Of a DNA stretch of 64,000 bases, positions 740 to 20,870 are shown one piece after another. Source of the DNA: Burkholderia pseudomultivorans (GTDB lineage Bacteria; Pseudomonadota; Gammaproteobacteria; Burkholderiales; Burkholderiaceae); assembly GCF_001718415.1 (NCBI RefSeq), contig NZ_CP013377.1:1736001-1800000 (forward strand), written 5' to 3'. Both the position numbers and the translations under genes were made by a program. A model generated the notes under the pieces. That model ran no database searches. It had not been told where the DNA came from and saw only the letters and a program-made list of their open reading frames with translations. How positions within the stretch are numbered: the first letter of the stretch is position 1; each line of letters starts with the position of its first letter.

Positions 740-1522
740 GTGACCTTACAGGCCAACGACGCCGTCGCCCGCGCGAACGGCATGATCGAGCTGTCCCACA
801 GTTTCGACGCCAACCGGTTTCTCGCTGCGCTCGATCGCGACGACCGCGCGACGCTGATCCCGCAACTGCAGCTCGTCCACCTGAAATCCGGGCAGGTGCT
901 GTGCGAACCCGGCGAGATGCTCGCCGCGGTCTACCTGCCCGTCACGACCGCGATCTCGCTGCAGTACGTGTCGTCCGGCGGCATGACGCTGGAGGTCGCG
1001 CAGATCGGCAGCGAGAGCGTGGTTTGCGACGACGTGATCGGCGGCAGCGGCCGGATGCCGTGCCGCGCGGTCGCGTGCCGCGACGGATTCGTGTACCGCC
1101 TCGACCGGCGCGTGTTCGCCGCCGCGTTCGACACGTCGCCGGTGATTCGCCATCTCGTGTTCGTCTGCGTGCGGCTGCTGATGGCGCAGGTGTCGCAAAT
1201 CACCTTCTGCAGCCGCCATCACGTGCTCAAACATCAGTTATGCAGATGGTTCCTGCTCGCATACGACCGCTCGCGCAGCATCGAGATCCAGGTCACGCAC
1301 AGCATGCTCGCGCAGATGCTCGGCGTGCGGCGCGAGACGGTCACGGATGCCGCCGGCGAAATCCAGAAGCTCGGGCTGATCCGGCAGTACCGCAGCTCGA
1401 TCGTGCTCGCGGATCTCGCCGGCCTCGAGACGATGTCCTGCGGCTGCCGCGCGATCGTGCGCGACGAAATGAAGCGCATCCTGTCGGCCGACACGGGCGT
1501 GCCGGCGGCCGCGCGCGCATGA
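740..1522 (+). CDS. berA: CRP/FNR-family regulator, BerA-like (c-di-GMP effector)
   Basis: The 260-residue protein has a cyclic-nucleotide-binding beta-barrel in roughly residues 20-135 and a winged helix-turn-helix of the CRP type at about 175-220 (HSMLAQMLGVRRETVTDAAG is the recognition region). The GTG start at 740 follows an AGGATG ribosome binding site; an ATG at 782 is a possible alternative. The setting matches B. cenocepacia Bcam1349 (BerA), a c-di-GMP-responsive activator of biofilm exopolysaccharide: a five-gene operon follows, then a sigma-54 activator, then polysaccharide export genes. From published work on that species, as I recall it, berA transcription is activated by BerB with RpoN. 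Assignment as the BerA ortholog rests on context and fold, not on an alignment. Ligand binding cannot be judged from the sequence alone. Confidence 0.75.
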   Translation: MTLQANDAVARANGMIELSHSFDANRFLAALDRDDRATLIPQLQLVHLKSGQVLCEPGEMLAAVYLPVTTAISLQYVSSGGMTLEVAQIGSESVVCDDVIGGSGRMPCRAVACRDGFVYRLDRRVFAAAFDTSPVIRHLVFVCVRLLMAQVSQITFCSRHHVLKHQLCRWFLLAYDRSRSIEIQVTHSMLAQMLGVRRETVTDAAGEIQKLGLIRQYRSSIVLADLAGLETMSCGCRAIVRDEMKRILSADTGVPAAARA

Positions 1523-1557: not shown

Positions 1558-1727
1558 ACGCTGCGGCCCGCCCGCTCGCGTACGCCCGCGCAGGTCAGCA
1601 GATTGTAGGGTGGCGAACAGAACGCAACGGCGGCGAATGGTCTACTGATGTCGGACTGCCGGGGGGATGTCAGCGCATTGCGCCGTGTCTGCCCGCATGG
1701 ACGAAACCACGCACGCCGGAGCAGCAC

Positions 1728-1979
1728 GTGAAAAACGAAATCAGAACCATCCTCAAGCAGGTCGCCCATCTCGAAGCTGCGATCGATTCGATCGGCGACG
1801 GCGACGACCTCTACGAAGCGGGCCTGTCGTCGCTCGACACGATCCAGCTGATGCTGGCGATCGAAAAGCAGTTCAACATCGAGATTCCCGACGAGATGCT
1901 GAACCGCAATCTGTTCCGCAGCATCGACGCGCTCGCGGACACGATCGCCACCCTGCAACGCACCGAGCATTCCGCATGA
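1728..1979 (+). CDS. Acyl carrier protein (amino acid-accepting type)
   Basis: An 83-residue acidic four-helix carrier protein. The phosphopantetheine attachment motif is GLSSLDT, with Ser35 as the expected attachment serine, followed by the typical helix IQLMLAIEKQF. The usual Asp of the DSL motif is replaced by Ser, as I recall for the carrier proteins paired with amino acid:[carrier protein] ligases in Bradyrhizobium. It starts with GTG at 1728, and its stop codon overlaps the ATG of the next gene (ATGA), so it is the first gene of a five-gene translationally coupled operon. Because the ligase two genes downstream belongs to the enzymes that load glycine or alanine on such carriers, this protein probably carries an amino acid thioester rather than a fatty acyl chain. 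Confidence 0.85.
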   Translation: MKNEIRTILKQVAHLEAAIDSIGDGDDLYEAGLSSLDTIQLMLAIEKQFNIEIPDEMLNRNLFRSIDALADTIATLQRTEHSA

Positions 1980-3172
1980 GCGCGCTGCTTCCGGAACTCG
2001 CAGCCGACGACGAATCCCGTCGGCTCGACGAGGCCGCGCGCGCCGTCGCGGAGATCGCCGCCCGCCACGCGGACGCGGTCGATCGCGACGCGCGCTGCCC
2101 CGTCGAGGCGATCGAGGCGATGCGCGCGCGCCGCCTGTTGAGCGCGATGGTGCCGACGCGGCTGGGCGGCGCGGGCGCCTCGCTGGCGGACATCGCGTCG
2201 GCCTGCTCGATCCTCGGCCAGGCCTGCGCATCGTCGGCGATGGTGTTCGCGATGCACCAGATCCAGGTCGCATGCATCGTCGACCACGCGGCCGACCACG
2301 GCTGGCACAAACTGTTCCTGCAGCAACTCGTGCGCCACCAGTGGCTGCTCGCGTCGGCCACGTCGGAGGACGGCGTCGGCGGCAACCTGCGCGCGAGCCA
2401 GTGCGCGCTGGAAACCAACGGCGGCGAATTCCGGCTGCACAAGTCCGCGCCGACGATCTCGTACGGCGAGTACGCGGACGGCATCCTCGCGACCGCGCGA
2501 CGCGACGCGCAGGCCCCCGCCTCCGAGCAGGTGCTCGTCACGCTGATGCGCGACGGCTATACGCTGGCGCGCCGCGGCGAATGGGACACGCTCGGCATGC
2601 GCGGCACCTGCAGCAACGGCTTCACGCTCGACGCACAGGGCGCCACCGTGCAGTGCCTGCCGGTGCCGTTCGCGCAGATCGCCGAGCAGACCATGGTGCC
2701 CGTCTCGCACATCCTGTGGGCTGCCGTGTGGATCGGCGTCGCGGGCGACGCGTTCCATCGCGCACACCAGTTCTTCCGTGCGCAGGCGCGCCAGACCGAC
2801 GGCGCGCCGTCGCCGGCAGCGCGGCGCATCGCCGAATCGCTCGCGCTGATGCAGGCGATGCAGGCCCGCGTCGACAACGTGCTGCGCCTGTACGCGAATG
2901 CATCCGCGCGCTCGTGGTCGGCGGGCATGGCCTGGGCCGCCGAGATCAATACGCTGAAGACCTACGTCTCGACGACCGCGCTCGAAGTCGCGCACGAGGC
3001 GATGATGATCTGCGGGATGGCCGGCTACAAGCAGGGCACGCCGTTCAGCGTCGGCCGGCATATTCGCGACCTGCACGCGGCGCCGCTGATGATCAACAAC
3101 GACCGCATTGCCGCCAACACTTCGAGCCTGCTGCTCGCGCTGCGTCCTGCGACGCTGGAGAAACTCACGTGA
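1976..3172 (+). CDS. Acyl-CoA dehydrogenase-like flavoprotein
   Basis: A 398-residue member of the acyl-CoA dehydrogenase superfamily: an N-terminal helical part (ARRLLSAMVPTRLGGAGASL is typical), a central beta-domain, and a C-terminal helical bundle containing the AYEVAH-like helix TTALEVAHEAMMICGMAGYK. The family uses FAD to introduce a double bond next to a thioester. The start is the ATG at 1976, which overlaps the carrier-protein stop by four bases, and its own stop overlaps the next GTG. In this context the substrate is likely to be the aminoacyl or acyl group held on the carrier protein, as in the flavin enzymes that oxidise prolyl-carrier proteins. That substrate is inference; it could equally act on a free CoA ester. 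Confidence 0.8.
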   Translation: MSALLPELAADDESRRLDEAARAVAEIAARHADAVDRDARCPVEAIEAMRARRLLSAMVPTRLGGAGASLADIASACSILGQACASSAMVFAMHQIQVACIVDHAADHGWHKLFLQQLVRHQWLLASATSEDGVGGNLRASQCALETNGGEFRLHKSAPTISYGEYADGILATARRDAQAPASEQVLVTLMRDGYTLARRGEWDTLGMRGTCSNGFTLDAQGATVQCLPVPFAQIAEQTMVPVSHILWAAVWIGVAGDAFHRAHQFFRAQARQTDGAPSPAARRIAESLALMQAMQARVDNVLRLYANASARSWSAGMAWAAEINTLKTYVSTTALEVAHEAMMICGMAGYKQGTPFSVGRHIRDLHAAPLMINNDRIAANTSSLLLALRPATLEKLT

Positions 3173-4143
3173 ACGACCGCCTGTCCGTGCCCCCCGCCGC
3201 TTCCATCCCCGCCGATGCGCCGCTCGACCGCGCCGGCGTCAACCCGCTGCGCGACGAGCTGATCGAGGCCGGCCTGCTGGTCTCGACCGGCATCCAGGGC
3301 CTGTTCGGCCGCAGCGAATCGTTCGAGCGCGTGGTCGAGGCGCTCGACGCGTTCGTCACGCGCATCGGCGCCGACCAGCAGGCCGAAGTGTTGCGCTTTC
3401 CGCCCGCGATCAGCCGCCTCGAGTTCGAGCGCAGCGAATACATGAAGAGCTTCCCGCAGCTTGCCGGCAGCGTCCATTCGTTCTGCGGCGACGAGCGCCA
3501 GCACCAGCGGCTGCTGCAATGCCTCGATCGCGGCGAGGACTGGACGGAAAACCAGAAGCCGACCTATGTCGTGATGACGCCGGCCGCCTGCTATCCCGTC
3601 TATCCGGTCATCGCGCGCGAAGGCGCACTGCCCGCCGACGGCCGCATCGTCGACGTGTTCTCGTACTGCTTCCGCCACGAGCCGTCGCTCGACCCGACCC
3701 GCATGCAGCTGTTCCGGATGCGCGAGTACGTGCGGATCGGCACGCCCGAGCAGATCGTCGCCTTCCGCCAGACCTGGATCGAACGCGGCACGCGGATGAT
3801 CGAGGCGCTGCGCCTGCCGAACGCGATCGACCTCGCCAACGACCCGTTCTTCGGGCGCGGCGGCAAGATCGTCGCGAACAGCCAGCGCGAGCAGAACCTG
3901 AAGTTCGAACTGCTGATCCCGATCGAGCACGACGGCCGGCAGACCGCATGCCTGAGCTTCAACTACCACATGGACCATTTCGGGCTGCTGTGGAATATCC
4001 GCACCGCGACCGACGAAGTCGCGCACACCGGCTGCGTCGGCTTCGGCCTCGAACGCCTCACGCTCGCGCTGTTCCGTCATCACGGCTTCGACATCGACGC
4101 ATGGCCGCAGGACGTGCGCGACGTGCTGTGGGGATCGCCATGA
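3169..4143 (+). CDS. Amino acid:[carrier protein] ligase (class II aaRS-like)
   Basis: A 324-residue protein with the class II aminoacyl-tRNA synthetase catalytic fold but no tRNA-binding domain. Motif 2 is visible as QLFRMREYVR and motif 3 as GCVGFGLERLTLALF. Expected zinc ligands are Cys141, Glu186 and Cys289; their spacing (45 and 103 residues) equals that of Cys131/Glu176/Cys279 of the Bradyrhizobium glycine:[carrier protein] ligase as I remember it. These homologs of archaeal SerRS cores activate glycine or alanine with ATP and load it on the phosphopantetheine of a carrier protein, here most likely the one encoded at 1728. The GTG start at 3169 overlaps the preceding stop (GTGA), and the stop overlaps the next ATG. 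Which amino acid is used cannot be read from the sequence. Confidence 0.88.
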   Translation: MNDRLSVPPAASIPADAPLDRAGVNPLRDELIEAGLLVSTGIQGLFGRSESFERVVEALDAFVTRIGADQQAEVLRFPPAISRLEFERSEYMKSFPQLAGSVHSFCGDERQHQRLLQCLDRGEDWTENQKPTYVVMTPAACYPVYPVIAREGALPADGRIVDVFSYCFRHEPSLDPTRMQLFRMREYVRIGTPEQIVAFRQTWIERGTRMIEALRLPNAIDLANDPFFGRGGKIVANSQREQNLKFELLIPIEHDGRQTACLSFNYHMDHFGLLWNIRTATDEVAHTGCVGFGLERLTLALFRHHGFDIDAWPQDVRDVLWGSP

Positions 4144-5195
4144 AATTCGTTTCGCGCGACGGCGAAGACCGGTCGTTCGAGGACGTGCGCCACCGCGCAC
4201 GCCACTATCGACCGCATCCGCTGCACGGCCACGAGATGGTCTGGAAGCAGACCAACTGCTATGTCGACATGTGGCTCGAGGTGCTCCGGTGGTGGGGCTT
4301 CAATCCGTACGCGGCGCTGCCGTTTACGATCGCGCTCGATTTCGAGGGCGACCAGTTCACGTTCTTCAAGTTTCCGCACGACGAACTGGAGCGACTCTAC
4401 GGCATCGTCGTGCAGGAGCACTCGATCTACGAGCCGCTCGACCGGCACGTCGAGACGCAGGTGGCGCGCGGTCACCTGATGATCGTCGAAGTCGACGCGT
4501 GGTTCCTGCCCGATACGCGCGGCATCAGCTATCGCACCCAGCACACCAAGACGACGATCGGCATCGACGCGATCGATCGCGCGCATCGCCAGCTCGGCTA
4601 TTTCCACAACAGCGGCTACTACGTGGCCGAGGGCGTCGACTACGACGGGCTGGTCGGCGACGGTTCGCCGATGACGCTGCCGCCGTACGTCGAATGCGCG
4701 AAGCGGCGCTTCCCGCCGCTCGACGAACGCACGCTGTGCGAGGTGTCGCTCGCGGCGCTGCAACGCCACCTGCGGCGCCTGCCGGTCGTCGATCCGATCG
4801 CGGCGTTCCGGCAGCAGCTGTACAGCGACGCGAAGACGCTCGCCGACTCGCCGATCGAGCGCTTCCACGCGTACTCGTTCAATTCGGTGCGGCAGCTCGG
4901 CGCGAACTTCGAACTGTTCGGCCACTACGTGCGCTGGCTGCAGGCAAGCGGCTGCATCGGACCGTTCGCCGAGATCCGTGCCGCGTGCGATCGCATCGCG
5001 TCCGAGGCGATGGTGCTGGAATTCCGGCTCGCGCGGGCATGCTCGCGCGGCAAGGAAGAACGCGGCGACTCGACGCTCGACGCGATCCAGGCCGCCTATG
5101 CGGATATCGTCGCGTGTGCGCGGCAGATCGCGCCGCCGCTGCAGCACGCGGCGCCGCTTCGCCACGACGCGGCGTTCGCGCCGCTCGCGCGGTGA
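4140..5195 (+). CDS. DUF1839 family protein
   Basis: A 351-residue soluble protein that I assign to the DUF1839 family by its WKQTNCYVDMWLEVLRWWGF beginning and the GYYVAEGVDYDG segment in the middle. An invariant-looking Cys (about residue 40) followed by Asp, and later His residues (FHNSGYY, ERFHAYSF), would suit an acyl- or aminoacyl-transferase active site, but this is a guess. As I recall, homologs occur next to amino acid:[carrier protein] ligases in rhizobia and Burkholderia, which supports a role downstream of the aminoacyl-carrier protein. It starts with ATG overlapping the previous stop and ends overlapping the GTG of the GH2 gene. No signal peptide or membrane segment is seen, so it acts in the cytoplasm. 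Confidence 0.75.
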   Translation: MKFVSRDGEDRSFEDVRHRARHYRPHPLHGHEMVWKQTNCYVDMWLEVLRWWGFNPYAALPFTIALDFEGDQFTFFKFPHDELERLYGIVVQEHSIYEPLDRHVETQVARGHLMIVEVDAWFLPDTRGISYRTQHTKTTIGIDAIDRAHRQLGYFHNSGYYVAEGVDYDGLVGDGSPMTLPPYVECAKRRFPPLDERTLCEVSLAALQRHLRRLPVVDPIAAFRQQLYSDAKTLADSPIERFHAYSFNSVRQLGANFELFGHYVRWLQASGCIGPFAEIRAACDRIASEAMVLEFRLARACSRGKEERGDSTLDAIQAAYADIVACARQIAPPLQHAAPLRHDAAFAPLAR

Positions 5196-7669
5196 CGCGC
5201 GCCGCCGCTGCGCCCGGCGCGTCCGCATGGTCGATGCTGGCGACGGCCGCGGGCGCCGTGCGCAGGCCGCGCGAACTGCCCGCCGACGCCGACTGGATCG
5301 CCGCGCCCGTGCCCGGCACGGTCGCACTGGCGCTGATGCTCGCGGGCCGGCTCGACGAAGCGGGCTCGCTCGACGAGCGCGACCATTGGTACCGGCTCGA
5401 CCTGCGCGGACACGGCGCGCGCCTGCTGCGCTTTCACGGGCTCGCGACGCTCGCCGAAGCGTGGCTCGACGACACGCCGATCCTCCGCTCGAACAGCATG
5501 TTCGTCGCGCATGACGTGCCCGTGTCGCTCGACGGCGCGCATCGGCTGACGCTCTGCTTCCGCGCGCTCGCGCCGCACCTGCGCGACGTGCGCGCCACGC
5601 GCCGCGCGCGCTGGCGCACGCGGCTCGCCGAACCGGCCGCGCTGCGAACCGTGCGCACCTCGCTGTTCGGCCACATGCCGGGCTGGTTTCCGCCCTACGT
5701 GCCGGCCGGCCCGTGGCGGCCCGTCGACGTGATCGACCCGGCCGGCGGCCCTGCCGTCGTCCACTGCGACCTGCATGCGCGCGTCGACGGCGACACCGGA
5801 TGGCTCGACGCGGAACTCGCATTTGCCGCACCGCTGCCCGACTCCTTCGCCGCCCGGCTGTCGTGCGGCGAGCATCACGCGACGCTCGAACGCAGCGCCG
5901 CCGACCGCCTGCGTGCGACCGTCGCGGTACCCAACGTGCGCCGCTGGTGGCCGCATACGCATGGCGAGCCGGTGCTTTACGATGTCGTGCTGCATATCGG
6001 CGCGGAACGGCACGCACTCGGCGCCACCGGCTTCCGGACCATCGAAGCGGATCCGGGCGCCGACGGCAAGGGCTTCGGCCTGCGCGTGAACGGCGTGCCG
6101 GTGTTCGCGCGCGGCGCATGCTGGAGCAGCGCCGCGCCGCTCGCGCTGCATGCCGACGAGGCGACCTACCGCCGGCTGCTCACGCTCGCGCGCGACGCCG
6201 GCTTCAACATGATCCGCGTCGGCGGCACGATGAGCTACGAAGCCGACGCGTTCCATGCCTGGTGCGACCGCCTCGGGCTGCTGGTCTGGCAGGACTTCAT
6301 GTTCGCGAACTTCGATTACGCGCTCGACGAGCCCGCGTTCGCGGACGCGGTCGACCGCGAGGCCGAACAGTTCCTGATGCGCCACCGCGCGTCGCCGTCG
6401 CTCGCGGTGCTGTGCGGCGGCAGCGAGATCGCGCAGCAGGCCGCGATGTCGGGGCTCGGGCCGAAGCAGCGCTTTCTCGAACTGACCGCCGACCGGTTGG
6501 CCGGTCATGCCGCGGCGCGACGGCCCGATGCGGTCTACGTGCCGGACTCGCCCGACGGCGGCGTGCTGCCGTTCCAGCCGCGCGAGCGCGTGTCGCACTA
6601 TTACGGCGTCGGCGCGTACCTGCGCCCGCTCGACGACGCGCGCCGTGCGGACGTGCGCTTCGCGAGCGAATGCCTCGCGTTCGCGAACGTGCCGAGCGAC
6701 GCGATGCTCGACAGCCTCGGCCGGCCCGGCGTGCACGAGCCGCGCTGGAAGGCGGCGGTGCCGCGCGACCCCGGCACCTCGTGGGATTTCGAAGACATTC
6801 GCGACCACTATCTGCGCGCGCTGTACGACGTGGCGCCCGACCGGCTGCGGCGCGAGGATCCGGCGCGCTACTTCGAGCTGTCGCGCGCCGCGATCGCGGA
6901 CGTGATGCGCGAGACGTTCGCCGAGTGGCGACGCACCGGCTCGCGCTGCGCCGGCGCACTCGTCTGGCAGTTGCAGGACGTGATGCCCGGCGCCGGATGG
7001 GGCGTGATCGAAGCGACGCACCGGCCGAAATCGGCCTGGCACGCGCTGCGCCAGGTGCTGCAGCCGGTGCAGGTCCTGCTCGTCGACGAAGGCCTGAACG
7101 GGCTGGACCTGCACGTGATCAACGAGCGTCCCGCGCCGCTGTCGGCGGCCGTCGAACTGGTCGCGCTGCGCGATGGCCGCACGCCGGTCTCGCGGGCCGG
7201 ATGTCCGGTCCGGATCGCCGCACACGATGCGGTCCGGCTCGGCTCGGCCGAACTGCTGGGCCGCTTCTTCGACTGGACCTATGCGTACCGCTTCGGCCCG
7301 TGCGAGCACGACACGGTCGTCGCGACGCTGCGCGCCGACGACGGCACGCTGCTGTCGCAGGCGTTCCATTTCCCGTCTCGCACGCATCCGGCGGTGTTCG
7401 CGCCGCGCGAACTCGGGCTCGAGGCATGCGTGTCGCGCAGCGGTGATGTCTGGCACGTCGATATCGACACGCGTCACGTCGCGCGTCACGTGCAGATCGA
7501 CGCGCCGGGATTCGTGCCGCGCGACGACTGGTTCCATCTCGCGCCCGGCACGCCCGCGCGCGTCGCGCTGATGCCGCTCGACGACGGTGCGGCATCCGGG
7601 GCGCCGCCGGTCGTCGAGATCCGCGCCGTGAATGCCGCGCGCACCGTGCGCGCGACGCAGGCCGACTGA
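5192..7669 (+). CDS. Glycoside hydrolase family 2 (beta-mannosidase-like)
   Basis: An 825-residue GH2-type protein: sugar-binding jelly roll (about 1-170), immunoglobulin-like domain, then the TIM barrel. The barrel entry strand RVGGTMSYEADAFHAWCDRL and the VWQDFMFAN segment are typical of beta-mannosidases. The acid/base Glu is expected at residue 412 in LCGGSEIAQQ and the nucleophile at Glu493 in FASECLAF. The residue before Glu412 is Ser instead of the nearly invariant Asn of the NNE motif, so activity or specificity may differ from known members. There is no signal peptide, so it appears cytoplasmic. It is the last gene of the carrier-protein operon, with its GTG overlapping the DUF1839 stop. 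Its presence hints that the operon product is attached to, or released from, a mannose-containing glycan. Confidence 0.8.
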   Translation: MTRAAAAPGASAWSMLATAAGAVRRPRELPADADWIAAPVPGTVALALMLAGRLDEAGSLDERDHWYRLDLRGHGARLLRFHGLATLAEAWLDDTPILRSNSMFVAHDVPVSLDGAHRLTLCFRALAPHLRDVRATRRARWRTRLAEPAALRTVRTSLFGHMPGWFPPYVPAGPWRPVDVIDPAGGPAVVHCDLHARVDGDTGWLDAELAFAAPLPDSFAARLSCGEHHATLERSAADRLRATVAVPNVRRWWPHTHGEPVLYDVVLHIGAERHALGATGFRTIEADPGADGKGFGLRVNGVPVFARGACWSSAAPLALHADEATYRRLLTLARDAGFNMIRVGGTMSYEADAFHAWCDRLGLLVWQDFMFANFDYALDEPAFADAVDREAEQFLMRHRASPSLAVLCGGSEIAQQAAMSGLGPKQRFLELTADRLAGHAAARRPDAVYVPDSPDGGVLPFQPRERVSHYYGVGAYLRPLDDARRADVRFASECLAFANVPSDAMLDSLGRPGVHEPRWKAAVPRDPGTSWDFEDIRDHYLRALYDVAPDRLRREDPARYFELSRAAIADVMRETFAEWRRTGSRCAGALVWQLQDVMPGAGWGVIEATHRPKSAWHALRQVLQPVQVLLVDEGLNGLDLHVINERPAPLSAAVELVALRDGRTPVSRAGCPVRIAAHDAVRLGSAELLGRFFDWTYAYRFGPCEHDTVVATLRADDGTLLSQAFHFPSRTHPAVFAPRELGLEACVSRSGDVWHVDIDTRHVARHVQIDAPGFVPRDDWFHLAPGTPARVALMPLDDGAASGAPPVVEIRAVNAARTVRATQAD

Positions 7670-7702: not shown

Positions 7703-9094
7703 TCAGTCCGACGAGCCCGTGCCGCGCGGCCGCTCGATCCCGTAGGCCTCCATCCAGCGATAGAGCGTCGCGCGCGACACGCCGAGTTCGCGCGCGGACG
7801 CCGCGACGCGGCCGCGCGTGCGCAGCAGCGCGGTTTCGATTGCCTCGCGCTCGATCGACTTGCGAATGTCGGCCACCGACGGCGACGCGGCGTCGAGACA
7901 GTATTCGAGCTCGAGGTCGTGCGCGGTGATCAGGCGCCCTTCCGTCATCACGACCGCACGGCGCACGCGGTTGATCAGTTCGCGGACGTTGCCCGGCCAG
8001 TCGTGCTTGTAGAGCGCGGTGATCGCATCCGACGAGAAGCCGCGCACGCGATGGCGCGCATCGCCGCGGAAACGCTCGAGCATGTGATGCGCGAGCAGCT
8101 CGATGTCCTTGCCGCGCGCGCGCAGCGGCGGTTGGTCGATGCGCATCACGCACAGCCGGTGAAACAGGTCCGCGCGAAACCGGCCTTCCTCCATCGCGTC
8201 GCGCAGATCGACGTGCGTCGCGGACACGATCCGGACGTCGACCGGCACCGGATCGCTGCCGCCCAGCCGGTGAATCGCGCGTTCCTGCAGGAAGCGCAGC
8301 AGGCTCGCCTGGCTCTCGTGCGGCAGGTCGCCGATTTCGTCGAGCAGCAGCGTGCCGCCGTTGGCGGCCTCGACGTAGCCGATCTTGCGCGCGTTCGCGC
8401 CGGTAAACGCGCCGCGCTCGTAGCCGAACAGTTCGGACTGCAGCAGATGCGGCGGAATCGCCGCACAGTTGACCGCGACGAACGGCCCGTTGCGCCGCTC
8501 CGAATGACGATGGATCGCGACCGCCGTCAGCTCCTTGCCGGTGCCCGTTTCGCCGAACACGAACACGGGCGCGTCCGTGCGCGCGAAGCGACGCACCGTA
8601 TCGAACAGCCGCAGCATCGCGCTGCAGGTGCCGACGATTCCGTGTTCGTCGGATTCGAGCCGCTCGCGATCGCGCGCGAACAGGCATTCCATGCCGTACG
8701 CGTGACCGACCGTATCCGCGATCCGCTGATGCGACGCAGGCAGCGTGATGTAGTCGAAGCAATAGTCGCGCAACAGCGCGCGCACGTTCGGCGACGCGGT
8801 CTGGCCCGCATCGACGAGCGCGACCCACACGACGTCGCGCATCGACGCGCAGGTGGACGCGATGCTGCCGATTGCGTCCGCATGCCCGCCGCTGAGGTCG
8901 AGGATGCCGCAGGTGATTTCGCTGGCGGTGTCGCGCAATTCGCTTGCTTGCGAAACGACCGAGACTTTCCAGTCGCGCCGAGCCAGTTCCTTGCGCAGCA
9001 TGACGGATGGCGCCTGCGTCCAGTAGATCAACGGGCGCTGCCCGGCCGCATTCCCCCCGCCGGCGCTCTTATCGCGCGTTATTGGCATATTCAT
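7703..9094 (-). CDS. berB: Sigma-54 enhancer-binding protein, BerB/VpsR-like
   Basis: A 463-residue NtrC-type activator. Residues 20-140 form a receiver-like domain that appears to lack the standard phosphoacceptor aspartate motif, as in VpsR-type proteins. The AAA+ domain contains Walker A GETGTGKE at 181-188, the sigma-54 contact motif GAFTGA at 228-233, and Walker B GGTLLLDEIGDL. A Fis-type helix-turn-helix ends the protein (VAASARELGVSRATLYRW). From published work on B. cenocepacia, BerB binds c-di-GMP and drives RpoN-dependent transcription of berA, which then raises exopolysaccharide production. The position here, between the berA region and the polysaccharide genes, fits that protein. 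ATG at 9094 is the longest start; the third residue is also Met. The gene is convergent with the GH2 operon. Confidence 0.75.
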   Translation of the reverse strand: MNMPITRDKSAGGGNAAGQRPLIYWTQAPSVMLRKELARRDWKVSVVSQASELRDTASEITCGILDLSGGHADAIGSIASTCASMRDVVWVALVDAGQTASPNVRALLRDYCFDYITLPASHQRIADTVGHAYGMECLFARDRERLESDEHGIVGTCSAMLRLFDTVRRFARTDAPVFVFGETGTGKELTAVAIHRHSERRNGPFVAVNCAAIPPHLLQSELFGYERGAFTGANARKIGYVEAANGGTLLLDEIGDLPHESQASLLRFLQERAIHRLGGSDPVPVDVRIVSATHVDLRDAMEEGRFRADLFHRLCVMRIDQPPLRARGKDIELLAHHMLERFRGDARHRVRGFSSDAITALYKHDWPGNVRELINRVRRAVVMTEGRLITAHDLELEYCLDAASPSVADIRKSIEREAIETALLRTRGRVAASARELGVSRATLYRWMEAYGIERPRGTGSSD

Positions 9095-10425
9095 AACGAA
9101 CCGTCACTTTCTCCACTCCGCGAATCGCTCGCGTGCGCTGCGTGCGGCGGTGCGTGGCCGCCTGTCCGCGCTGCGTTTCCGCAGCTTTGGCGAAGATCGA
9201 AAATGCACACGGCGAGAGCCCCCGGAGGTCGAGCCGGATGTCATCCGGCCTCGTTGTCATCGTACTCGAAGGAAACACGCGGCCTCGGGAGCCACGGCGT
9301 TCCGGCTTTGATGCGACGCGCAGCCACTCGCCACACGTCGGCAAACGGGAATTCCGACCGCATTTGCGTCGCGTCGTACACGACAGCCGCGCCCGATGCT
9401 GAACCGGACGGCCGCCCATCCGTTTCCGGAGCGACGGCCTGATTTCATCCGTTCCTGAATCTACACCCCGTTTCAGGGTGGTTTGTTACGAAAAGCAATA
9501 CATCGAATCATTCGATTACGTCAGCGGCCGATACGTGAAGCGCCCCCTTTAGCGACTCAGATTTGATTATCTCCGACCATTCGCGTCAATCGGTGGCAAA
9601 TACTACTTTTCCGCGTATTTGGCCGCGTTCATTGCTCGTGATTCACGGCGGAATCGTGTGAAACGGCCGAAAACCGTTCCGCCGGCCGAATAATCCCACT
9701 TGTTGCGCAGCGCCGCAGGCACGCGCCGGACACCGGCGCGGCGACCCGCCGTTACATCGTCGTAACCACCTCGGCACCGATGCCGGCCCTTGGGCTGCGG
9801 GTCGCCGGCCCGAGTCGGCCGCCATTAGCCCGCCGGATTGCAAGGAGTCAGGGGCTTCGCGAGCCGGCGCGCAAGCGTCGTGCCCGGGCGCTTCGTTGCG
9901 CGACGCAACATCGCCGTCCGTCGAAAACGGCGCGCGCGAGCGGGATATCGGGAGGCTGGCGATACGGGGGAGCGTTCCGAACGACCGGTTCGGCACGGTC
10001 GGCAACTCGAACGCCCGCGCCCGATGCCGACGGTTGGCTTGCAGGCTGACCACGCTTTCGCGATGGCAGGCTGCGCCACGTCGCGATGCATGTCGGCGCG
10101 CCGGCATCCGCATGGCGCCGCGCGGCACGCGCGGCCCGTCGTGAACGATCGCAATCTTCAAGTGCATCCCCGGTTCGTTCATTCATGTTCGCCGGTGGCG
10201 AATCGCGTAGCGCATCGCCCCCTTCGAATGCATTCATTATCGAAAAGTCGCGGCGGCACCGATGTGTGCTGCCTCACACTGCACCATTCTCGTGAAGCGC
10301 CGCCGTGCGGACCCGGAGCGTGAGTAGGCTTTCGAACAGACCGTTGCGCGGTGCATCCGCATCATGAAGTCGCGCCGCAACCTCACGGAAGCGGCAGGTT
10401 GAAGGCATCACGCGAGGACCGCATC
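9095..10425. other. Long non-coding control region, berB / manC divergent spacer
   Basis: This 1.33-kb spacer separates the divergent berB-like gene from the acetyltransferase-manC pair. Reading frames up to 179 codons occur but have arginine-rich, shadow-like composition and no domain. The segment 9440-9660 is clearly more AT-rich than its surroundings and includes a perfect inverted repeat ATCGAAT-C-ATTCGAT at 9502-9516 and CGTGA-T-TCACG at 9637-9647. These are candidate operators for BerA or another regulator of the exopolysaccharide genes. I found no canonical sigma-54 promoter. Confidence 0.5.
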
Positions 10426-11010
10426 ATGGAATGGCATTGTTGTGAATTCGAACATCTGGGCGCCGTCGATCTCTACGCGATCCTGCGCGCCCGCAACGCG
10501 GTGCTGGTGGTCGAGGATGCGCACACGCATCTCGACATCGACGGCAAGGACGCCGGCGCGCTGCACGTCTACGCACGCGTGCACGACGACGACGCCGTCG
10601 AGGTCGCCGCTTACGCGCGCATCCTGCCCGGCGACGATATCGACCCCGACGTCGTGATCGACAAGGTGCTGACGAGCGAGGCGTGCCGCGACGACGACAC
10701 GCTCGAACGGCTGCTGGAGCGCGCGCTCGCCGCCGCGCACGTCGCGTGGCCGGACACCGCCGTGCGCACGCACGTGCCGGCGTCGCGCCAGGCGTTCTAC
10801 AAACGCTTCGGATTCCGCAAGGCCTACGGTCCGTATCTCGAACAGGGCGCACCGTTCGTCGGCATGGTCCGGCCGGCGGACCGCGCGGCAGGTGCGCTGC
10901 GCACGCTGCTGTCCCGGGTCGTGACCGCGTCCGGAACCGGCAGCGCCGACACGCATGCCGAGGGCCGTGCGTCCAGCCGGCAGCCGGCCGACACCGGAGC
11001 CAATCGATGA
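10426..11010 (+). CDS. ElaA-like GNAT acetyltransferase
   Basis: A 194-residue GCN5-related N-acetyltransferase of the ElaA type. Its opening (MEWHCCEFEHL...LYAILRARNAVLVVE) and the DIDGKD and FYKRFGFRKA segments match that family, in which acetyl-CoA binds at the end of strand 4. The ATG at 10426 has a GAGGACC ribosome binding site and matches the usual ElaA start; a longer upstream frame from 10351 looks untranslated. The last ~40 residues are a low-complexity extension absent from typical ElaA proteins. Its stop overlaps the manC start by four bases, so the two proteins are made together. The substrate is unknown; an acetyl group on a sugar precursor is possible but unproven. Confidence 0.75.
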   Translation: MEWHCCEFEHLGAVDLYAILRARNAVLVVEDAHTHLDIDGKDAGALHVYARVHDDDAVEVAAYARILPGDDIDPDVVIDKVLTSEACRDDDTLERLLERALAAAHVAWPDTAVRTHVPASRQAFYKRFGFRKAYGPYLEQGAPFVGMVRPADRAAGALRTLLSRVVTASGTGSADTHAEGRASSRQPADTGANR

Positions 11011-12596
11011 CCCGCCTCCTTCGCCCGGTTCCCGAACCGGATCTGCCGCGCATCCTGCCCGTGATTCTCGCGGGCGGCTCCGGTACGCGGCTCTGGCCGC
11101 TGTCGCGCGAACAGCATCCTAAGCAGCTGATCGAGCTGATCTCGAACGAGTCGCCGCTGTCGGCGACGGCGCGTCGCCTGAACGGCATCGAGAACGCGTC
11201 GCTCGGCGACCGCCTGCTGCTGGTGTGCGGCGAGCAGCACCGCTTCATGAGCGCCGCGCAGGTCGCCGGCCAAGGCGCCGCGCCCGCGCGCATCCTGCTC
11301 GAGCCGAGCGCGCGCAATACGGCGCCGGCCCTCACGCTGGCGGCGCTCGACGCATGCGCCTACGCCGACGACCCGGTGCTCGCGGTGATGCCGGCCGATC
11401 ACGTGATCGTCGACGCCGCCGCGTTCCAGGATGCCGTCGGCCGCGCCGCGCGCTACGCGCAGGAAGGTGCGATCGTTACGCTCGGCGTGCTGCCGCGCCG
11501 TGCGGAAACGGGCTACGGCTACATCCAGGTCGGCGCGCCGCGTGCGGGCCGCCACGGCGGCCAGGGCGGCTATTCGATCGGCCGCTTCGTCGAGAAGCCC
11601 GATGCCACACTCGCCGAGCGCTATCTGCAGTCGGGCGACTACTGGTGGAACAGCGGCATCTTCATCACGCGCGCGTCGGTCTGGCTCAAGGCGATCCAGG
11701 CGCTCGCGCCGGACATTCATGCGGCCTGCGAAGCGGCATGGCGCGCGGGCGTCGCCGAGGATCCGTTCTTCCGGATCGACGCGGCGGCGTTCGACGCGTG
11801 TCCGTCCGACTCGATCGACTACGCGGTCATGGAGCGGCTCGCGGACAGCGGCAAGCTCGGCATCGAGGGCATCGTGGTGCCGCTTGCGGCCGGCTGGTCG
11901 GACGTCGGCACCTGGGATGCGATCTGGGAAATCATGCCGAAGGACCACCAGGGCAACGTCGCACGCGGCCCGATCGTGTTCGAGAATACGCAGGACAGTC
12001 TCGTGCGCTCCGAAGGGCGGCTCGTCGCGTGCATCGGGATGAAGGACGTGGTCGTGATCGAGACGGCCGATGCCGTGCTGGTCGCGAACAAGCACGACGT
12101 GCAGCGCGTGAAGGACATCGTCGCGCGCCTGAAGATGGATCAGCGCCCGCAGGTGCGCGAACACCGCAAGGTGCAGCGGCCGTGGGGGCACTACGATTCG
12201 ATCGACGTCGGCACGCGCTTCCAGGTCAAGCGCATCGTCATCGAACCCGGCAAGCGGCTGTCGCTGCAGATGCACTATCACCGCGCCGAGCACTGGATCG
12301 TCGTGCGCGGCACCGCGCGGGTCACGCGCGGCGACGACACGTTCCTGCTGAGCGAAAACGAATCGACGTACATTGCGGTCGGCGAGGTGCATCGGCTCGA
12401 GAATCCCGGCCGCATTCCGCTCGAGATCATCGAGGTGCAGTCGGGCGACTACCTCGGCGAAGACGATATCGTGCGCTTCGAAGACCAGTACGGCCGCGCG
12501 GTCGAGACGCCGCCGGTCCGACCGGCTCCGCCCGCGGCACCCGACGACGAAGCGCACGAACCGGCCGAAGCGGTGGTGCGCGATGGCGTTCGGTAA
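11007..12596 (+). CDS. manC: Mannose-1-P guanylyltransferase / mannose-6-P isomerase
   Basis: A 529-residue bifunctional type II enzyme. The N-terminal nucleotidyltransferase has the pyrophosphorylase signature ILAGGSGTRLWPLSRE near residue 20 and FVEKPD further on. The C-terminal cupin phosphomannose isomerase domain has the zinc-site region QMHYHRAEHWIVVRGTA. Together these convert fructose-6-phosphate (through mannose-6-phosphate and a separate phosphomannomutase) to GDP-mannose, the donor for mannose-rich exopolysaccharide. The length is slightly above the usual 470-480 because of an acidic, proline-rich C-terminal tail of about 35 residues. It is translationally coupled to the acetyltransferase upstream and convergent with the export genes. 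Confidence 0.92.
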   Translation: MTRLLRPVPEPDLPRILPVILAGGSGTRLWPLSREQHPKQLIELISNESPLSATARRLNGIENASLGDRLLLVCGEQHRFMSAAQVAGQGAAPARILLEPSARNTAPALTLAALDACAYADDPVLAVMPADHVIVDAAAFQDAVGRAARYAQEGAIVTLGVLPRRAETGYGYIQVGAPRAGRHGGQGGYSIGRFVEKPDATLAERYLQSGDYWWNSGIFITRASVWLKAIQALAPDIHAACEAAWRAGVAEDPFFRIDAAAFDACPSDSIDYAVMERLADSGKLGIEGIVVPLAAGWSDVGTWDAIWEIMPKDHQGNVARGPIVFENTQDSLVRSEGRLVACIGMKDVVVIETADAVLVANKHDVQRVKDIVARLKMDQRPQVREHRKVQRPWGHYDSIDVGTRFQVKRIVIEPGKRLSLQMHYHRAEHWIVVRGTARVTRGDDTFLLSENESTYIAVGEVHRLENPGRIPLEIIEVQSGDYLGEDDIVRFEDQYGRAVETPPVRPAPPAAPDDEAHEPAEAVVRDGVR

Positions 12597-12671
12597 ATGA
12601 CGGGAAGGGCGGCTGCGGCGCACGAAGGCGCGACGCGTGCCGCCCTCCTTCGCGCGCCTCGCCTCGCACCG

Positions 12672-13928
12672 TCAGCGGGTGCCGCGCAACTGCCTGAGCG
12701 ATTCGCGCACGCGCGGCAACTGCGTCGCGTCGACGCCGACCACGTCGGACGCCGACAGCTGCATCGCCGCTTTCGCGCACGCCGCCCCGTCGCAATCGCG
12801 CGCGCCGCCGATCTGCACCGGCATGCCGCCGATCCCCGACAGGCGGTTGTCGGCCAGACGGACGGCGGACACGTTTCCCCATAAGCGAATGCCGCCGAAG
12901 CGCGCATTCGACACGCGGTTGCCGATCACGGCCACGCGCGTCACCGTGCCCGACCACGTGCTGATGTCGATCGCGGCCTGCCGGGTGAGCGGGCGCGGAT
13001 CGGTGCGGTCGGTCGCGGTCTGGATGTTCTCGATCACGTTGCCTTCGACCAGCACGCCGGACGAGCCGGCGGTGTGGTTGCTGTCCTCCTGCGCGACGAG
13101 CACGCCGGCGCTCACCTGCACGTTGCGCACGATATTGTTCTCGATCGTCACGTCCGCGCCGCCGACTACCGTGATGCCGCGTCCCCAGTAGTTGCCTTCG
13201 AGCACGTTGCCGGTAATCAGCACGTTGCGGGTCAGTTCGGGTTCGTTGTCGTAGCTGACCACCGCGATCATGTCGTCGCCCACGCCGCGCACGACATTGC
13301 CGCGCACCAGCACGTTGCGCGAGCCATGCGTGATGTGGATCGCATCCGCCAGCGTCGAGCGGACCTCGTTGCCGACGATCGCGACGTTGGTCCCGCCGAA
13401 TACGAAGATGCCGCTGCAACTGCCGCCGTCGATCGTATTGTCGAGCACCTGCACGTCGCGCCCGGTCACCTCGAGCTTCGCCGCCTCCGGCGTCGAGAGG
13501 CGCGTGGTGCCGGTCCCGACCAGCGTGAAGCCGGCGATCGTCGTGCCGGCGCCGCGCATCTCGATCACCTGGTCTTCGTCGGCGGTCGCGATCAGCGTCG
13601 CGCCGTAGCCCGACAGCACGACACGCGGCTGCCGCACGACCAGCGAACGGCCGACGACATAGCGGCCCGGCGCAAACACCAGCCGCTGGCCCGGCTGCAG
13701 CGCATCCAGCGCGCGCTGCAGCGCGTCGGCCTGATCGGCGCCGTCGCGGGCGGGAGACACGTGCGCGTCCGCTACGCTCGGCTGGCTCGCCGCCGCGCCT
13801 GCGCCGGAGGCCGCCGCGGCTGCCATCGCATTCGTCGAGGGCAGTCCGCCGGCCGTGCCGACACCGAAGGCCAGCGCGCACGCGGCGGCCAGTCGACGGA
13901 TACGCGCGCCGCCGCCGGCGGCTTTCAT
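12672..13928 (-). CDS. Exported right-handed beta-helix protein
   Basis: A 418-residue protein with an N-terminal signal sequence (RRLAAACALAFGVGTAGG...AMA) and about ten beta-helix coils. These show recurring N-x-I/V and G-x-V patterns such as VLVRGNVVRGVGDD, VLITGNVLEGN and VTIENNIVRN. The start overlaps the Wzc stop by four bases (ATGA), so it belongs to the wza-wzc operon. Beta-helix proteins in such operons are usually periplasmic polysaccharide lyases, epimerases or O-acetylation factors, as in alginate AlgG and AlgL systems. No catalytic residues can be assigned here, so whether it cuts, epimerises or only binds the polymer is open. Confidence 0.78.
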   Translation of the reverse strand: MKAAGGGARIRRLAAACALAFGVGTAGGLPSTNAMAAAAASGAGAAASQPSVADAHVSPARDGADQADALQRALDALQPGQRLVFAPGRYVVGRSLVVRQPRVVLSGYGATLIATADEDQVIEMRGAGTTIAGFTLVGTGTTRLSTPEAAKLEVTGRDVQVLDNTIDGGSCSGIFVFGGTNVAIVGNEVRSTLADAIHITHGSRNVLVRGNVVRGVGDDMIAVVSYDNEPELTRNVLITGNVLEGNYWGRGITVVGGADVTIENNIVRNVQVSAGVLVAQEDSNHTAGSSGVLVEGNVIENIQTATDRTDPRPLTRQAAIDISTWSGTVTRVAVIGNRVSNARFGGIRLWGNVSAVRLADNRLSGIGGMPVQIGGARDCDGAACAKAAMQLSASDVVGVDATQLPRVRESLRQLRGTR

Positions 13929-16198
13929 CGGTCGCCCTTGCCGCCCGCACCGGCCGGCCGGTGCGCCATCATCCCCGCATAGCCCGACGCGGCCTGATGG
14001 GTTTCCGCATTCCCGTAGCCATAGCCGTGCCCCGGCCCGCGCGCGAAGTCGTTCAGGATCACGCCGCGCACGTCGACCTGCACGTCCTGCAGCCGGCGCA
14101 CGCTTTCGTCGATTTCCGTCAGCGTCGTCACGCCGCTGCGCGCCACGAGGAACACGATACCGGCCAGACGGCCGAGCGCCAGCCCGTCGGTAACCGGCAG
14201 CAGCGGCGAGCCGTCGATCACGATCATCCGGTACTGCGACGACAGGCGCTCGATCAGTTCCGCCAGCGCGGGCTGCAGCAGCACCTCGCCCGGATCCGCG
14301 ACGATGCTGCCCATCGACAGGAAATCGAGGCCGGGCCGGACATCGCGCTTGAGCGCCTCGTCGAGACGGTGCGTGCCCATCACGACGTCGGACAGCCCCG
14401 GCGCGCGACTGTAACGGAAGTGATCGTGCAGCGCGCCCTTGCGCAGATCCGCGTCGATCAGCAACACGCGCTGGCTTGCCGCGGCCGCCAGTGCAGCGAG
14501 GTTCGATGCGATGTACGACTTGCCGACGCCGGTCGTCGGGCCCGAAATCAGCACGATGCGATTCGGCGCGTCCGGCAGCGACAGTTGCAGCGTCGTGCGG
14601 AAATTGCGCAGGCTTTCGATTGCCGGATCGGCCAGCCCGCCGCGTGACGCGGCGGACGCATGCGGCCGGTTGCGCGCGTCGGCGCCCGCAAGCCGCGGCG
14701 ACTCGCCGCGCGGCACCGTCGCGATGACCGGCAGGCCGGTCGTCCATTCGATTTCGCCGGGATCGGAAACGGTGCCGACGAACCGCTGCCGCAGCATCAG
14801 GTACGCGCCCGCCGCGAGCACACCCAGCAGCAGCGCGGCGACGACCGCCACGCCGCGATGCGGCTGCACCGGCAGGTCGGCGACCTTTGCGCGATCGACG
14901 ATCCGCACCGTGCCGGTCTTGCTTGCGCGTGCGAGCATCATCTGCTGCCGCGCGTTGAGCAGGTTCGTGTACAGCGCGGTATCGACCGTCACGTCGCGCT
15001 GGAGCTGCAGCACGCCCTGCTCCACCGCCGGCAGCTTCTGGATCTGCTCGCGCACCGCCGCGAGCGAACGCTGTGCGTCCGCGAGCTGCGCGTCGACCGC
15101 CACCACCGCCGGGTGCTTGTTCATGAAGCGCGTCAGCAGTTCCTGACGCTGCTGCTGCAGCGTCAGGATGCGCGTTTCGATATCGACCGACTGCTGGCGC
15201 AATGCGAGCGCCTCGTCGCTCGTGTTGACCGAGCCGTGCGACGCGCGATACGCGTTGAAACGCCCTTCGGCCGCTTCCAGCTGCGCCTTCAGTTGCGGCA
15301 GCTGCGCATCCATGAAGCGGATCAGCTTGTCCGCCGCCTCCGACTTGCGCTGCGTGTTCTGCGCCAGATACGCGTCGCCGACCGCGTTCAGGATGCTGCT
15401 GATGTGCGCGGCATCGCTGCCGTCGAGCGTCGCTCCGATGATGTTGGACTGCTTGCCGCGCTCCGAAATCAGCACGTTCTTCTGCAGCCACGCGGTGGTC
15501 TCGGCCTCGCCGTGGCGCGTCAGGTCGAAGCGCGCGCCCGGCTCGCCGTCGATCCCGCGCACCAGCAGGTCGATGTTTCCGTCCGGCGTCTCCGCGTGCA
15601 GCGGTTCGCCGATGCGCCCCTGCCATACCGGCCCCTTCCGGCCGAACAGGCCCGTGCGCTGCAGCGTGTACGCCCCGCCGCGCCCCACCGTCAACGCGAA
15701 CGACTTGTCGTACAGGCGTTTCGGCACGTCGAACGCCGCCACGTCGATCCGCTCGGTGCCGTACACGTATCCGCCCGGCAGCGGCGACGACAGGCCGTCC
15801 GCACCGTTCACCAGCCGCCAGCCGATCAGCGGCACGTAGCGCGGCCGCGCCTCGATGTACAGCTTCGTGGTGTCGACCGCGCGCGCCATCACCGCGCGCG
15901 ATTTCAGCACCTCGATCTCGGTCGCGGCATCGGTCTTCAGATCGAACATCGACGACGGATCGCCGGTCGGCGAAGCCGGCTTCGTGTCCGTCGGGCTCTG
16001 CTCGACCTGGAACAGCACGTCGCTTCGATACACGGGCCGCGCGCACAGCGCATACAACGCGCCCGCCGCGACGCAGATCAGCGCGCTGGCGACGATCGTT
16101 CGCCGGCCGCCGTACAGCATGCCCCAGTACCGGCGGAACGGATGCGGCGGCCGGGCCGTGGGCCCGCCGCGCGATTCAGGCATGGTCAGATGGCTCAT
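13925..16198 (-). CDS. Wzc-type polysaccharide copolymerase / tyrosine autokinase
   Basis: A 757-residue inner-membrane protein: transmembrane helix near residues 35-52, a periplasmic Wzz domain with a long coiled coil (about 270-400), a second helix near 455-475 (VAVVAALLLGVLAAGAYLML), and a cytoplasmic BY-kinase domain. The kinase has Walker A SGPTTGVGKS, Walker A' LLIDADLRKG and Walker B VIDGSPLLPVTD; the last usually reads DTPP. The C-terminal tail has three tyrosines in GYGYG and GYAG, fewer than classic Wzc tails. Such proteins control chain length and export of capsule or exopolysaccharide together with Wza. The start lies 55 bp downstream of the Wza-like gene, in the same operon. Confidence 0.88.
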   Translation of the reverse strand: MSHLTMPESRGGPTARPPHPFRRYWGMLYGGRRTIVASALICVAAGALYALCARPVYRSDVLFQVEQSPTDTKPASPTGDPSSMFDLKTDAATEIEVLKSRAVMARAVDTTKLYIEARPRYVPLIGWRLVNGADGLSSPLPGGYVYGTERIDVAAFDVPKRLYDKSFALTVGRGGAYTLQRTGLFGRKGPVWQGRIGEPLHAETPDGNIDLLVRGIDGEPGARFDLTRHGEAETTAWLQKNVLISERGKQSNIIGATLDGSDAAHISSILNAVGDAYLAQNTQRKSEAADKLIRFMDAQLPQLKAQLEAAEGRFNAYRASHGSVNTSDEALALRQQSVDIETRILTLQQQRQELLTRFMNKHPAVVAVDAQLADAQRSLAAVREQIQKLPAVEQGVLQLQRDVTVDTALYTNLLNARQQMMLARASKTGTVRIVDRAKVADLPVQPHRGVAVVAALLLGVLAAGAYLMLRQRFVGTVSDPGEIEWTTGLPVIATVPRGESPRLAGADARNRPHASAASRGGLADPAIESLRNFRTTLQLSLPDAPNRIVLISGPTTGVGKSYIASNLAALAAAASQRVLLIDADLRKGALHDHFRYSRAPGLSDVVMGTHRLDEALKRDVRPGLDFLSMGSIVADPGEVLLQPALAELIERLSSQYRMIVIDGSPLLPVTDGLALGRLAGIVFLVARSGVTTLTEIDESVRRLQDVQVDVRGVILNDFARGPGHGYGYGNAETHQAASGYAGMMAHRPAGAGGKGDR

Positions 16199-16253
16199 AC
16201 AACAGGTTTCCGTAAGACGCGACGAGTCGCGGTGACGAGGACCGGAACGACGT

Positions 16254-17483: not shown

Positions 17484-17608
17484 GACACCCTCTTGAACTG
17501 TGCGCTAACCCGCCGATCGCGACGGACTACGGCATTACTCTGTTTCCGCGGCCCGGCCCGGGTCGCCACGCCACCCTTACCCTCGCACGGCGCACCGTGC
17601 GATTCGAC

Positions 17609-20009: not shown

Positions 20010-20870
20010 TCGGTACTCCTCGGATAAGTCTTGTTATCGAATACCGGCAAATCGCTCCGGCTGGTCCGACCGAAGTCCGGGCCGCACGCGCCGATAGCGC
20101 GCCCTCCCGCGGATCTGCCGGCGCACTGCCGGTCGCCTGCGCGGCGCTGCCGGCGCAGACGCGCATCGACACGGATATCGCACGGCCCGTGTTGTCGTTT
20201 GCATTCGTGCGGCACGAATGCTGCCGCCGAACGCTTGTGCATGCCGGTGTCGTCTGGCCGCTCCGCCGGTGCTCCCGTGCAGTTCGTGCGCTGCACCGGG
20301 CCGGCGGTGTCGGACGCTCGCGCATGCGACCGGACGAATACCGATGGCCGATTAGACCATTCATGCTGCTTGCGCTTCGGTGCGCCAGATGACAGACGGA
20401 TTCGATCGCGCGGCGACGCAACGCGTCGTGTGCGCGAGCAATTTTTTGCGACGCGCGGCACGCTTCGTCGTCGGCCGCGACATCGCCGCGAGGCCGCGCG
20501 ACCGGTAGTTCTTGCCGCGCCGCGCACGCCGAACACGCACGATTGACCGCTTTTTCCACACGGCCCGACCGTCGTTTCACAAAGATCGCAGGAATCGGTA
20601 GAAACACTGATGCTGTAGTCAGACTACATTCATACCATTGGTCGCTGCAGAGAATTGCTACATCCGATTCGACAACGCCGGGCGGCCCGTGCACCGCGCC
20701 CGCCGATGCGTGTCGGGCCCAACCGGCCGCAACGATTCTCCGCACGGCCTGGCATGCCGACGCCGCAGACACCCCGCATTGCCAGCCTGGTGCGTCCGGT
20801 GCGAATCCACTGGACGCGCGCAGCGCCAGACTTCATCCGAACAACCGGCAACACGATCATGGAGAGCAAC
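20010..20870. other. Non-coding spacer between divergent hydrolase and GH3 genes
   Basis: About 860 bp with no supported gene; frames up to 260 codons on both strands have shadow-like, arginine-rich translations. The part 20540-20660 is less GC-rich and holds an inverted repeat TGTAGT-CAG-ACTACA at 20614-20628, a possible operator for the GH3 gene. I saw no clear promoter hexamers. Confidence 0.45.

Follow-up and report, generated by a model that had tools for sequence, protein, structure and literature searches.

The 64,000-nucleotide stretch of DNA analysed here (the window; Burkholderia pseudomultivorans, contig NZ_CP013377.1, positions 1,736,001 to 1,800,000) carries five plus-strand genes at window positions 1728-7669 that encode, in this order, a carrier protein, an acyl-CoA-dehydrogenase-like flavoprotein, an amino acid:[carrier protein] ligase, a DUF1839 protein and a GH2 glycosidase. 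The four junctions between them are 4-bp overlaps (ATGA, GTGA, ATGA and GTGA). A berA-like gene precedes the operon, as it does at the same place in the Burkholderia loci, and a berB-like gene faces it from the opposite strand; the observation of an initial annotation, made from the sequence alone, is thereby confirmed (Table 1). The closest named relative of the DUF1839 protein, among the best 80 of 165 relatives, comes from a B. pseudomultivorans strain (97%), whose DNA is 94% identical over 13.7 kb. On balance, our data favor a cassette that suffices by itself to form an amide from an amino acid held on a carrier.

Table 1. Features of the five-gene cassette and its surroundings (window positions)
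Feature	Position	Strand	Remarks
Carrier protein	1728-1979	+	GTG start, 83 aa; PP-binding PF00550, NF005480; phosphopantetheine site S35
Flavoprotein, acyl-CoA-dehydrogenase fold, lacking either dehydrogenase base	1976-3172	+	398 aa; PF02771 (Acyl-CoA_dh_N), PF00441 (Acyl-CoA_dh_1)
Amino acid:[carrier protein] ligase, paralogue of seryl-tRNA synthetase (SerRS)	3169-4143	+	GTG start, 324 aa; NF005479
DUF1839, predicted papain-fold carrier-protein-dependent amide synthetase	4140-5195	+	351 aa; 427 bits; Cys40, His156
GH2 glycosidase	5192-7669	+	GTG start, 825 aa; Pfam shows only N-terminal domain PF22666
berA-like Crp/Fnr regulator	740-1522	+	PF13545, PF00027; start codon uncertain
berB-like sigma-54 activator	7703-9094	-	PF00158, PF20161 (VpsR)
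Conserved promoter block upstream of operon	1603-1648	+	contains GAATGGTCTACTGA (1635-1648); alignment of 16 upstream regions
Double alpha/beta hydrolase, TIGR03101-TIGR03100 type (exosortase-associated)	18165-20009	-	below both curated cut-offs
Second copy of GAATGGTCTA element	20353-20362	-	~340 bases upstream of double hydrolase

The initial annotation had suggested a gene-neighbourhood search, and this search shows that the five genes do travel together. Of 115 loci with DUF1839, 110 preserve their order. The 80 named loci from Burkholderiaceae (the best of 165 relatives, near-copies included and with possible species overlap with the other set) contribute 75 of these, and the regions read from 35 genomes belonging to eleven families contribute all 35; of the five loci that deviate, L005, L019 and L030 are contig ends, and L048 and L054 are decayed copies. 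The 35 regions were drawn from the 38 genomes with DUF1839 in three samples, G415 and G539 being left out and G000 being the genome of the window. DUF1839 is present in 16 of 398 genomes of the phylum sample, 5 of 200 genomes of its own order and 25 of 199 genomes of another order, where a sample centred on a different genome gave the same 25. For each of the five genes the ratio of nonsynonymous to synonymous substitution rates (dN/dS), taken against five Burkholderia relatives, lies at 0.02-0.26, and all five look to be under purifying selection. Because of this ratio and the kept order, a chance arrangement can be excluded.

The ligase scores 556 bits to NF005479 (amino acid--[acyl-carrier-protein] ligase; cut-off 357) and 302-311 bits to the structures of Bll0957. 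Its zinc-ligand pattern C141/E186/C289, a match already picked out in the initial annotation, lines up with that of Bll0957 (C131/E176/C279 in the published numbering) and is invariant in all 125 rows of the alignment, and the class II motif residues R169 and R183 are kept in 125 and 123 of these rows; profile score, zinc ligands and motif residues thus place the protein in the amino acid:[carrier protein] ligase family. The carrier retains S35 in 120 of 120 rows. Relatives of the ligase use substrates of the Gly or Ala class, and Agrobacterium Atu2573 was reportedly among the ligases assayed. These relatives aminoacylate their cognate carrier and not tRNA (PMC9437257).

In the phylum sample the ligase is above cut-off in 28 of 398 genomes, which are all 16 DUF1839 genomes and 12 without DUF1839. 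In nine regions read from these 12, the flavoprotein gene adjoins the ligase gene every time, the carrier gene is divergent in seven, and neither DUF1839 nor GH2 occurs in any. In a tree of 59 ligases, one split (9 versus 50, support 100/100) coincides exactly with the absence or presence of DUF1839. As the two ligase forms separate by DUF1839 in regions and tree alike, the flavoprotein-ligase pair is the core of the system and DUF1839-GH2 is an added module. Bll0957 itself (aa:CP ligase 1, i.e. amino acid:[carrier protein] ligase 1, of Bradyrhizobium; structures 3mey and 4h2w) shares family and zinc pattern with the window ligase, and its gene adjoins an acyl-CoA dehydrogenase gene, bll0958, yet it sits in the clade that lacks DUF1839 and GH2, where the carrier gene is divergent in 7 of 9 regions; a ligase from that clade scores 714 bits to Bll0957, compared with 302 for the window ligase. 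Both bll0957 and bll0958 stand at 3.0 in the fold-change column of a phaR mutant table (PMC10888616). In some ligase-only loci, such as L193 (10693-13009), the ligase gene is directly followed by genes for a pyridoxal phosphate enzyme of Cys/Met metabolism and a homoserine O-succinyltransferase-like protein, which suggests a different product from the same loading core. Two relatives below cut-off (L195 and L196) have a ligase with none of the other four genes, and one ligase match in a DUF1839 genome (G197:C23:92354-93265) contains one TAA stop.

Profile and predicted fold (pLDDT 92.3) put the flavoprotein in the acyl-CoA dehydrogenase superfamily, yet the initial annotation of a dehydrogenase does not hold in the usual sense of the word. 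The two sites that we take to hold the catalytic Glu of acyl-CoA dehydrogenases, the MCAD-376 and IVD-254 positions, were located by visual inspection of motif spacing and of HMMER alignments; they fall at position 373 (Ile in 121 and Val in 2 of 123 rows) and position 244 (Ser in 109, Ala in 12, Cys in 1 and Thr in 1), and neither bears a Glu in any of the 123 rows. An ordinary, alpha,beta-desaturating fatty-acyl dehydrogenase is rejected on these grounds; Gly as a substrate would moreover offer no beta carbon. The invariant residues are H94, W203, H245, W248, W252, N375 and R377; DnmZ, a nitrososynthase-type N-oxygenase, also has a Trp where W203 aligns. Flavin N- or S-monooxygenases such as DszC, DnmZ and KijD3 are built on the acyl-CoA dehydrogenase fold too. 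Foldseek ranks the flavin mononucleotide (FMN) monooxygenases TdsC and DszC first and second, and in VIA-align they tie with dehydrogenases. Since both dehydrogenase bases are lost, we infer that the enzyme oxidizes at nitrogen or at the C-N bond, hydroxylation and dehydrogenation being alike possible. It could still be a true dehydrogenase with an unusual base, e.g. the invariant His245, that yields a dehydroamino acid or imine and is no oxygenase; the loss of both known Glu positions and the tryptophan held in common with DnmZ speak against this reading, which we consider a real possibility though not the probable one.

The fold predicted for DUF1839 is of the protease type and has CcbD, CtaG and AziU3 as its kin; with the papain-fold amide synthetases CcbD/LmbD/CtaG it shares this predicted fold and a nucleophilic Cys. 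His156, His135 and Asp167 are invariant and Thr139 is kept in 113 of 117 rows, with His156 or His135 as the candidate partner of Cys40 in a triad. The catalytic order C-(T/S)-H has been given for DUF1839 (PMC10318531). The DUF1839 profile had no match among PDB sequences, and a search of the open-access literature on papain-fold amide synthetases gave nothing. From its modelled fold DUF1839 is predicted to be of the CcbD/CtaG type, forming an amide from an acyl-carrier. The lincosamide synthetase CcbD/LmbD, which works with the CcbZ/LmbN carrier, differs in that it is 12% identical to DUF1839, has a different activating enzyme and a Cys-His-Glu triad instead of the reported Cys-Thr/Ser-His, and is mentioned with no GH2 partner in the accessible part of its description (PMC12945683).

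Cys40 is absent from only two DUF1839 rows, the operonic copies of G328 and G255. Among the 38 DUF1839 genomes these two alone have a second DUF1839; the second copy has the Cys, and that of G255 lies on a short contig. Likewise, Cupriavidus metallidurans CH34 and C. campinensis MJ1 have a Cys-less operonic DUF1839 and a Cys-bearing second copy beyond a Crp/Fnr gene (two Cupriavidus plasmid records, read for the Cys question only; a third record with two places, H61, was left out). In three of these cases, L099 (7425-8378 and 12235-13209), L241 and L242, the Cys-bearing copy lies past the adjoining Crp/Fnr gene. All four Cys-less operonic copies are thus accompanied by a Cys-bearing partner, and the four losses may be one event, since the four differing sequences look like one lineage. 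A second DUF1839 also occurs with no Cys loss, in the genomes of L036 (P. ginsengisoli) and L035 (P. sejongensis), which have two full cassettes each, all with the Cys.

By profile, GH2 is related to beta-mannosidases along almost its entire length (E 1.4e-84), and the nearest structures are the beta-mannosidases 5n6u, 7op6 and 2je8. The catalytic residues of GH2 enzymes are in place, the acid/base E412 in 112 of 113 rows and the nucleophile E493 in 112 of 112 ungapped rows. A strict beta-mannosidase identity is nevertheless rejected, as the place aligned with D199 of BtMan2A, which we take to be the mannose-binding Asp, is occupied by an invariant Gly164. By a simple hydropathy test, none of 115 GH2 rows has an N-terminal hydrophobic stretch or signal peptide, and among the ligase, flavoprotein, DUF1839 and GH2 rows together 1 of 477, a ligase, rises above threshold, a count that covers N-termini only. 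Judged from these sequences, GH2 should act in the cytoplasm on some sugar.

The promoter block that precedes the carrier gene shows strong conservation within Burkholderia. Its 14-mer pattern, GAATGGTCTAMTSR, has two matches in the 7.96-Mb genome, before the operon and before the double hydrolase gene, and occurs in 23 of 61 genomes of the genus, compared with one match for the reversed control pattern; its location relative to the operon was checked for G000 and G324 only. The bep region of G324 carries a one-mismatch GAATGATCTA. A published-type RpoN site upstream of the window berA gene (380-740) was not found with up to 3 mismatches, and an RpoN-like pattern has 76 matches across the window versus a shuffle mean of 111.8. 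We hypothesize that the operon is controlled by BerA. In B. cenocepacia berB is BCAM1342, berA is BCAM1349, and the published bep cluster, bcam1330-1341, leaves out the genes between the two (PMC9684580). Because berB and berA carry those tags, the counterpart of the operon should be the genes between BCAM1342 and BCAM1349; no mention of the tags bcam1343-1348 was found in the open-access literature searched.

These parts can be joined in one pathway. The ligase would adenylate a small amino acid of the Gly/Ala class and load it onto the carrier phosphopantetheine, as shown for its relatives, and the flavoprotein would oxidize the carrier-bound residue at its nitrogen or C-N bond, by N-hydroxylation or by forming an imine, and not desaturate it. 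The aminoacyl group would move to Cys40 of DUF1839 and from there to an amine in a ping-pong reaction, as with CcbD and its amino sugar, and GH2, probably in the cytoplasm, would trim or free a sugar moiety, either of the acceptor or of the conjugate; the product, the acceptor and the part played by GH2 are all putative. In Burkholderia the operon would be part of the berA/berB cyclic di-GMP (c-di-GMP) circuit, to judge from its position and conserved promoter element. Loading, action of a flavoenzyme, hand-on by DUF1839 and a link to a sugar thus survive, in conditional form, from the scheme of the initial annotation, and its usual dehydrogenase does not. Several observations weigh against this proposal: the flavoprotein profile scores higher for dehydrogenases than for monooxygenases, a flavin reductase is absent among the five genes, the motif AATGGTYTACT occurs in 26 of the 35 loci L002-L036, and just two of the 61 genus genomes, G000 and G771, have the second GAATGGTCTA site (the 14-mer that ends in AATCG), so that common control of the operon and the double hydrolase is weak outside this species. 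A wider reading is doubtful by our own estimate: a mobile minimal assembly line of aminoacyl-tRNA synthetase paralogue, free carrier, N-oxidizing flavoprotein and CcbD-type synthetase that would make an oxidized-aminoacyl amino-sugar metabolite with a dedicated cytoplasmic GH2, carried on plasmids by proteobacteria that live with plants, fungi or insects, and captured in Burkholderia by the c-di-GMP circuit.

The surroundings of the cassette vary. By rough self-made profiles, which may miss genes, glycosyltransferase or Wz-type genes lie near it in 22 of 35 diverse regions and in none of the other 13, so that the idea of a cassette always inside polysaccharide clusters is rejected; the double hydrolase gene is present in 24 of the 35 and in 0 of 9 ligase-only regions. 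The hydrolase gene follows GH2 directly, with a 4-base overlap, in Mycetohabitans rhizoxinica, Azospirillum lipoferum and A. brasilense, where it stands sixth, and the operon of five genes given earlier therefore has to be extended in some species; the search for this hydrolase covered three records. DUF1839 occurs in 59 records of a plasmid collection, 12 of them typed conjugative, and eight with the cassette were picked by hand. None of the seven annotated ones (Mycetohabitans, two Azospirillum, Rhizobium leguminosarum, Caballeronia, R. gallicum and Phyllobacterium) has glycosyltransferase or Wz genes in the stretch read; the eighth, unannotated and from B. cenocepacia, has polysaccharide genes. 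The Phyllobacterium cassette stands beside a gene for a major facilitator superfamily (MFS) transporter, and on the conjugative plasmid of R. gallicum (L236, NZ_CP017104.1, 6625-12484) the cassette follows nifDKENX-fdxB and precedes a 1-aminocyclopropane-1-carboxylate (ACC) deaminase gene. The bep cluster of the window genome is split: a GNAT-like gene, manC, a beta-helix gene, wzc, wza and the hydrolase stay by berB (10417-17504 and 18165-20009), and a glycoside hydrolase family 3 gene lies close by (20655-23072). At least four other counterparts of bep-region genes of G324 are found on another contig (C2:1601144-1607524, L228), two of which are glycosyltransferases by Pfam, 76-80% identical to those of G324; the bep glycosyltransferases, absent between manC and wzc, are thus not lost.

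Against this background the product of the cassette can be placed in different ways. It might add an aminoacyl group to a sugar of Bep or another surface polysaccharide, as AlmE/AlmF/AlmG and DltA/DltC move a carrier-bound amino acid to an envelope sugar or polymer; these systems share the amino acid-on-carrier logic of the cassette but have unrelated ligase and transferase folds and neither flavoprotein nor glycosidase. The position between berA and berB beside bep genes, the polysaccharide genes of the 22 regions, a 2023 papain survey that proposes cell-wall glycan processing for DUF1839 and a printed prediction of 2010 (PMC2922099) all agree with surface decoration. The plasmid records lacking such genes, the bep glycosyltransferases on another contig and the near absence of N-terminal hydrophobic stretches argue against it, as does the neutral Bep repeat of Gal, Glc, Gal and Man, which has no amino sugar (PMC7084887). 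Extraction of Bep used 0.3 M NaOH and its measurement 0.3 M NaOD, and because of this alkali a base-labile ester on Bep could have been lost unseen; a stoichiometric amide on a Bep amino sugar should have been noticed. We regard surface decoration as unlikely, and the biofilm polysaccharide of the initial annotation, which rightly stressed the place beside berA/berB in Burkholderia, was overstated because 13 of 35 regions and the seven annotated plasmids have no polysaccharide genes and Bep has no amino sugar.

A diffusible metabolite or signal of a sugar-amide or peptide-like kind, produced entirely by the cassette and perhaps matured or hydrolysed by the alpha/beta hydrolase, would reduce the exopolysaccharide neighbourhood to shared regulation. 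It would suit the cassettes that stand alone on plasmids, conjugative ones of Rhizobium among them, with nif genes or an MFS transporter as neighbours, and fold kin (CcbD, CtaG and AziU3) that belong to secondary metabolism; an exporter is missing among the five genes, there is no known product, and a glycosidase with no signal peptide is unusual for such clusters, which leaves this a somewhat tentative possibility. The opposite direction of flow, with a sugar-amino acid conjugate split by GH2 and DUF1839 and its acyl part recovered through the carrier system, is consistent with the kept GH2 active site, the protease-type fold and the hydrolases nearby, but an ATP-spending ligase with its own carrier points to synthesis and no uptake gene is found among the five; we hold such scavenging to be very improbable.

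The gene set is not new. A 2010 note in proof lists carrier, ligase, redox enzyme, conserved open reading frame (ORF) and glycosidase together, with Atu2574 as an example, and predicts an amide on a cell-surface amino sugar and a redox enzyme that is probably a monooxygenase (PMC2922099). An unreported gene set is thus rejected, since this neighbourhood has the same kinds of gene and the same predicted logic as our cassette; the accessible text of the note holds neither the ORF fold and its relatives nor the clade split, the Cys loss, the plasmid form or the c-di-GMP regulators (PMC2922099). Our results back the chemistry of that prediction and weaken its placement at the cell surface. The statement of the initial annotation that no product has been described is right as far as we searched, namely in the open-access literature, which omits most subscription journals, although the gene set and a very similar scheme had been in print; the combined cassette gene names gave no match there, and the product search yielded a triacsin/azaserine lead only.

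The cassette is a real, conserved and previously noticed form of carrier-protein aminoacyl transfer, now mechanistically sharpened. Viewing DUF1839 as an enzyme of the CcbD/CtaG type names the missing transfer step and predicts a catalytic Cys and an amine acceptor, and the pathway becomes testable with five or six soluble-looking proteins. That bacteria associated with roots, nodules, fungi and insects carry the intact cassette on plasmids suggests a role in life with hosts, and in Burkholderia the cassette would link a hidden metabolite to the control of biofilm.

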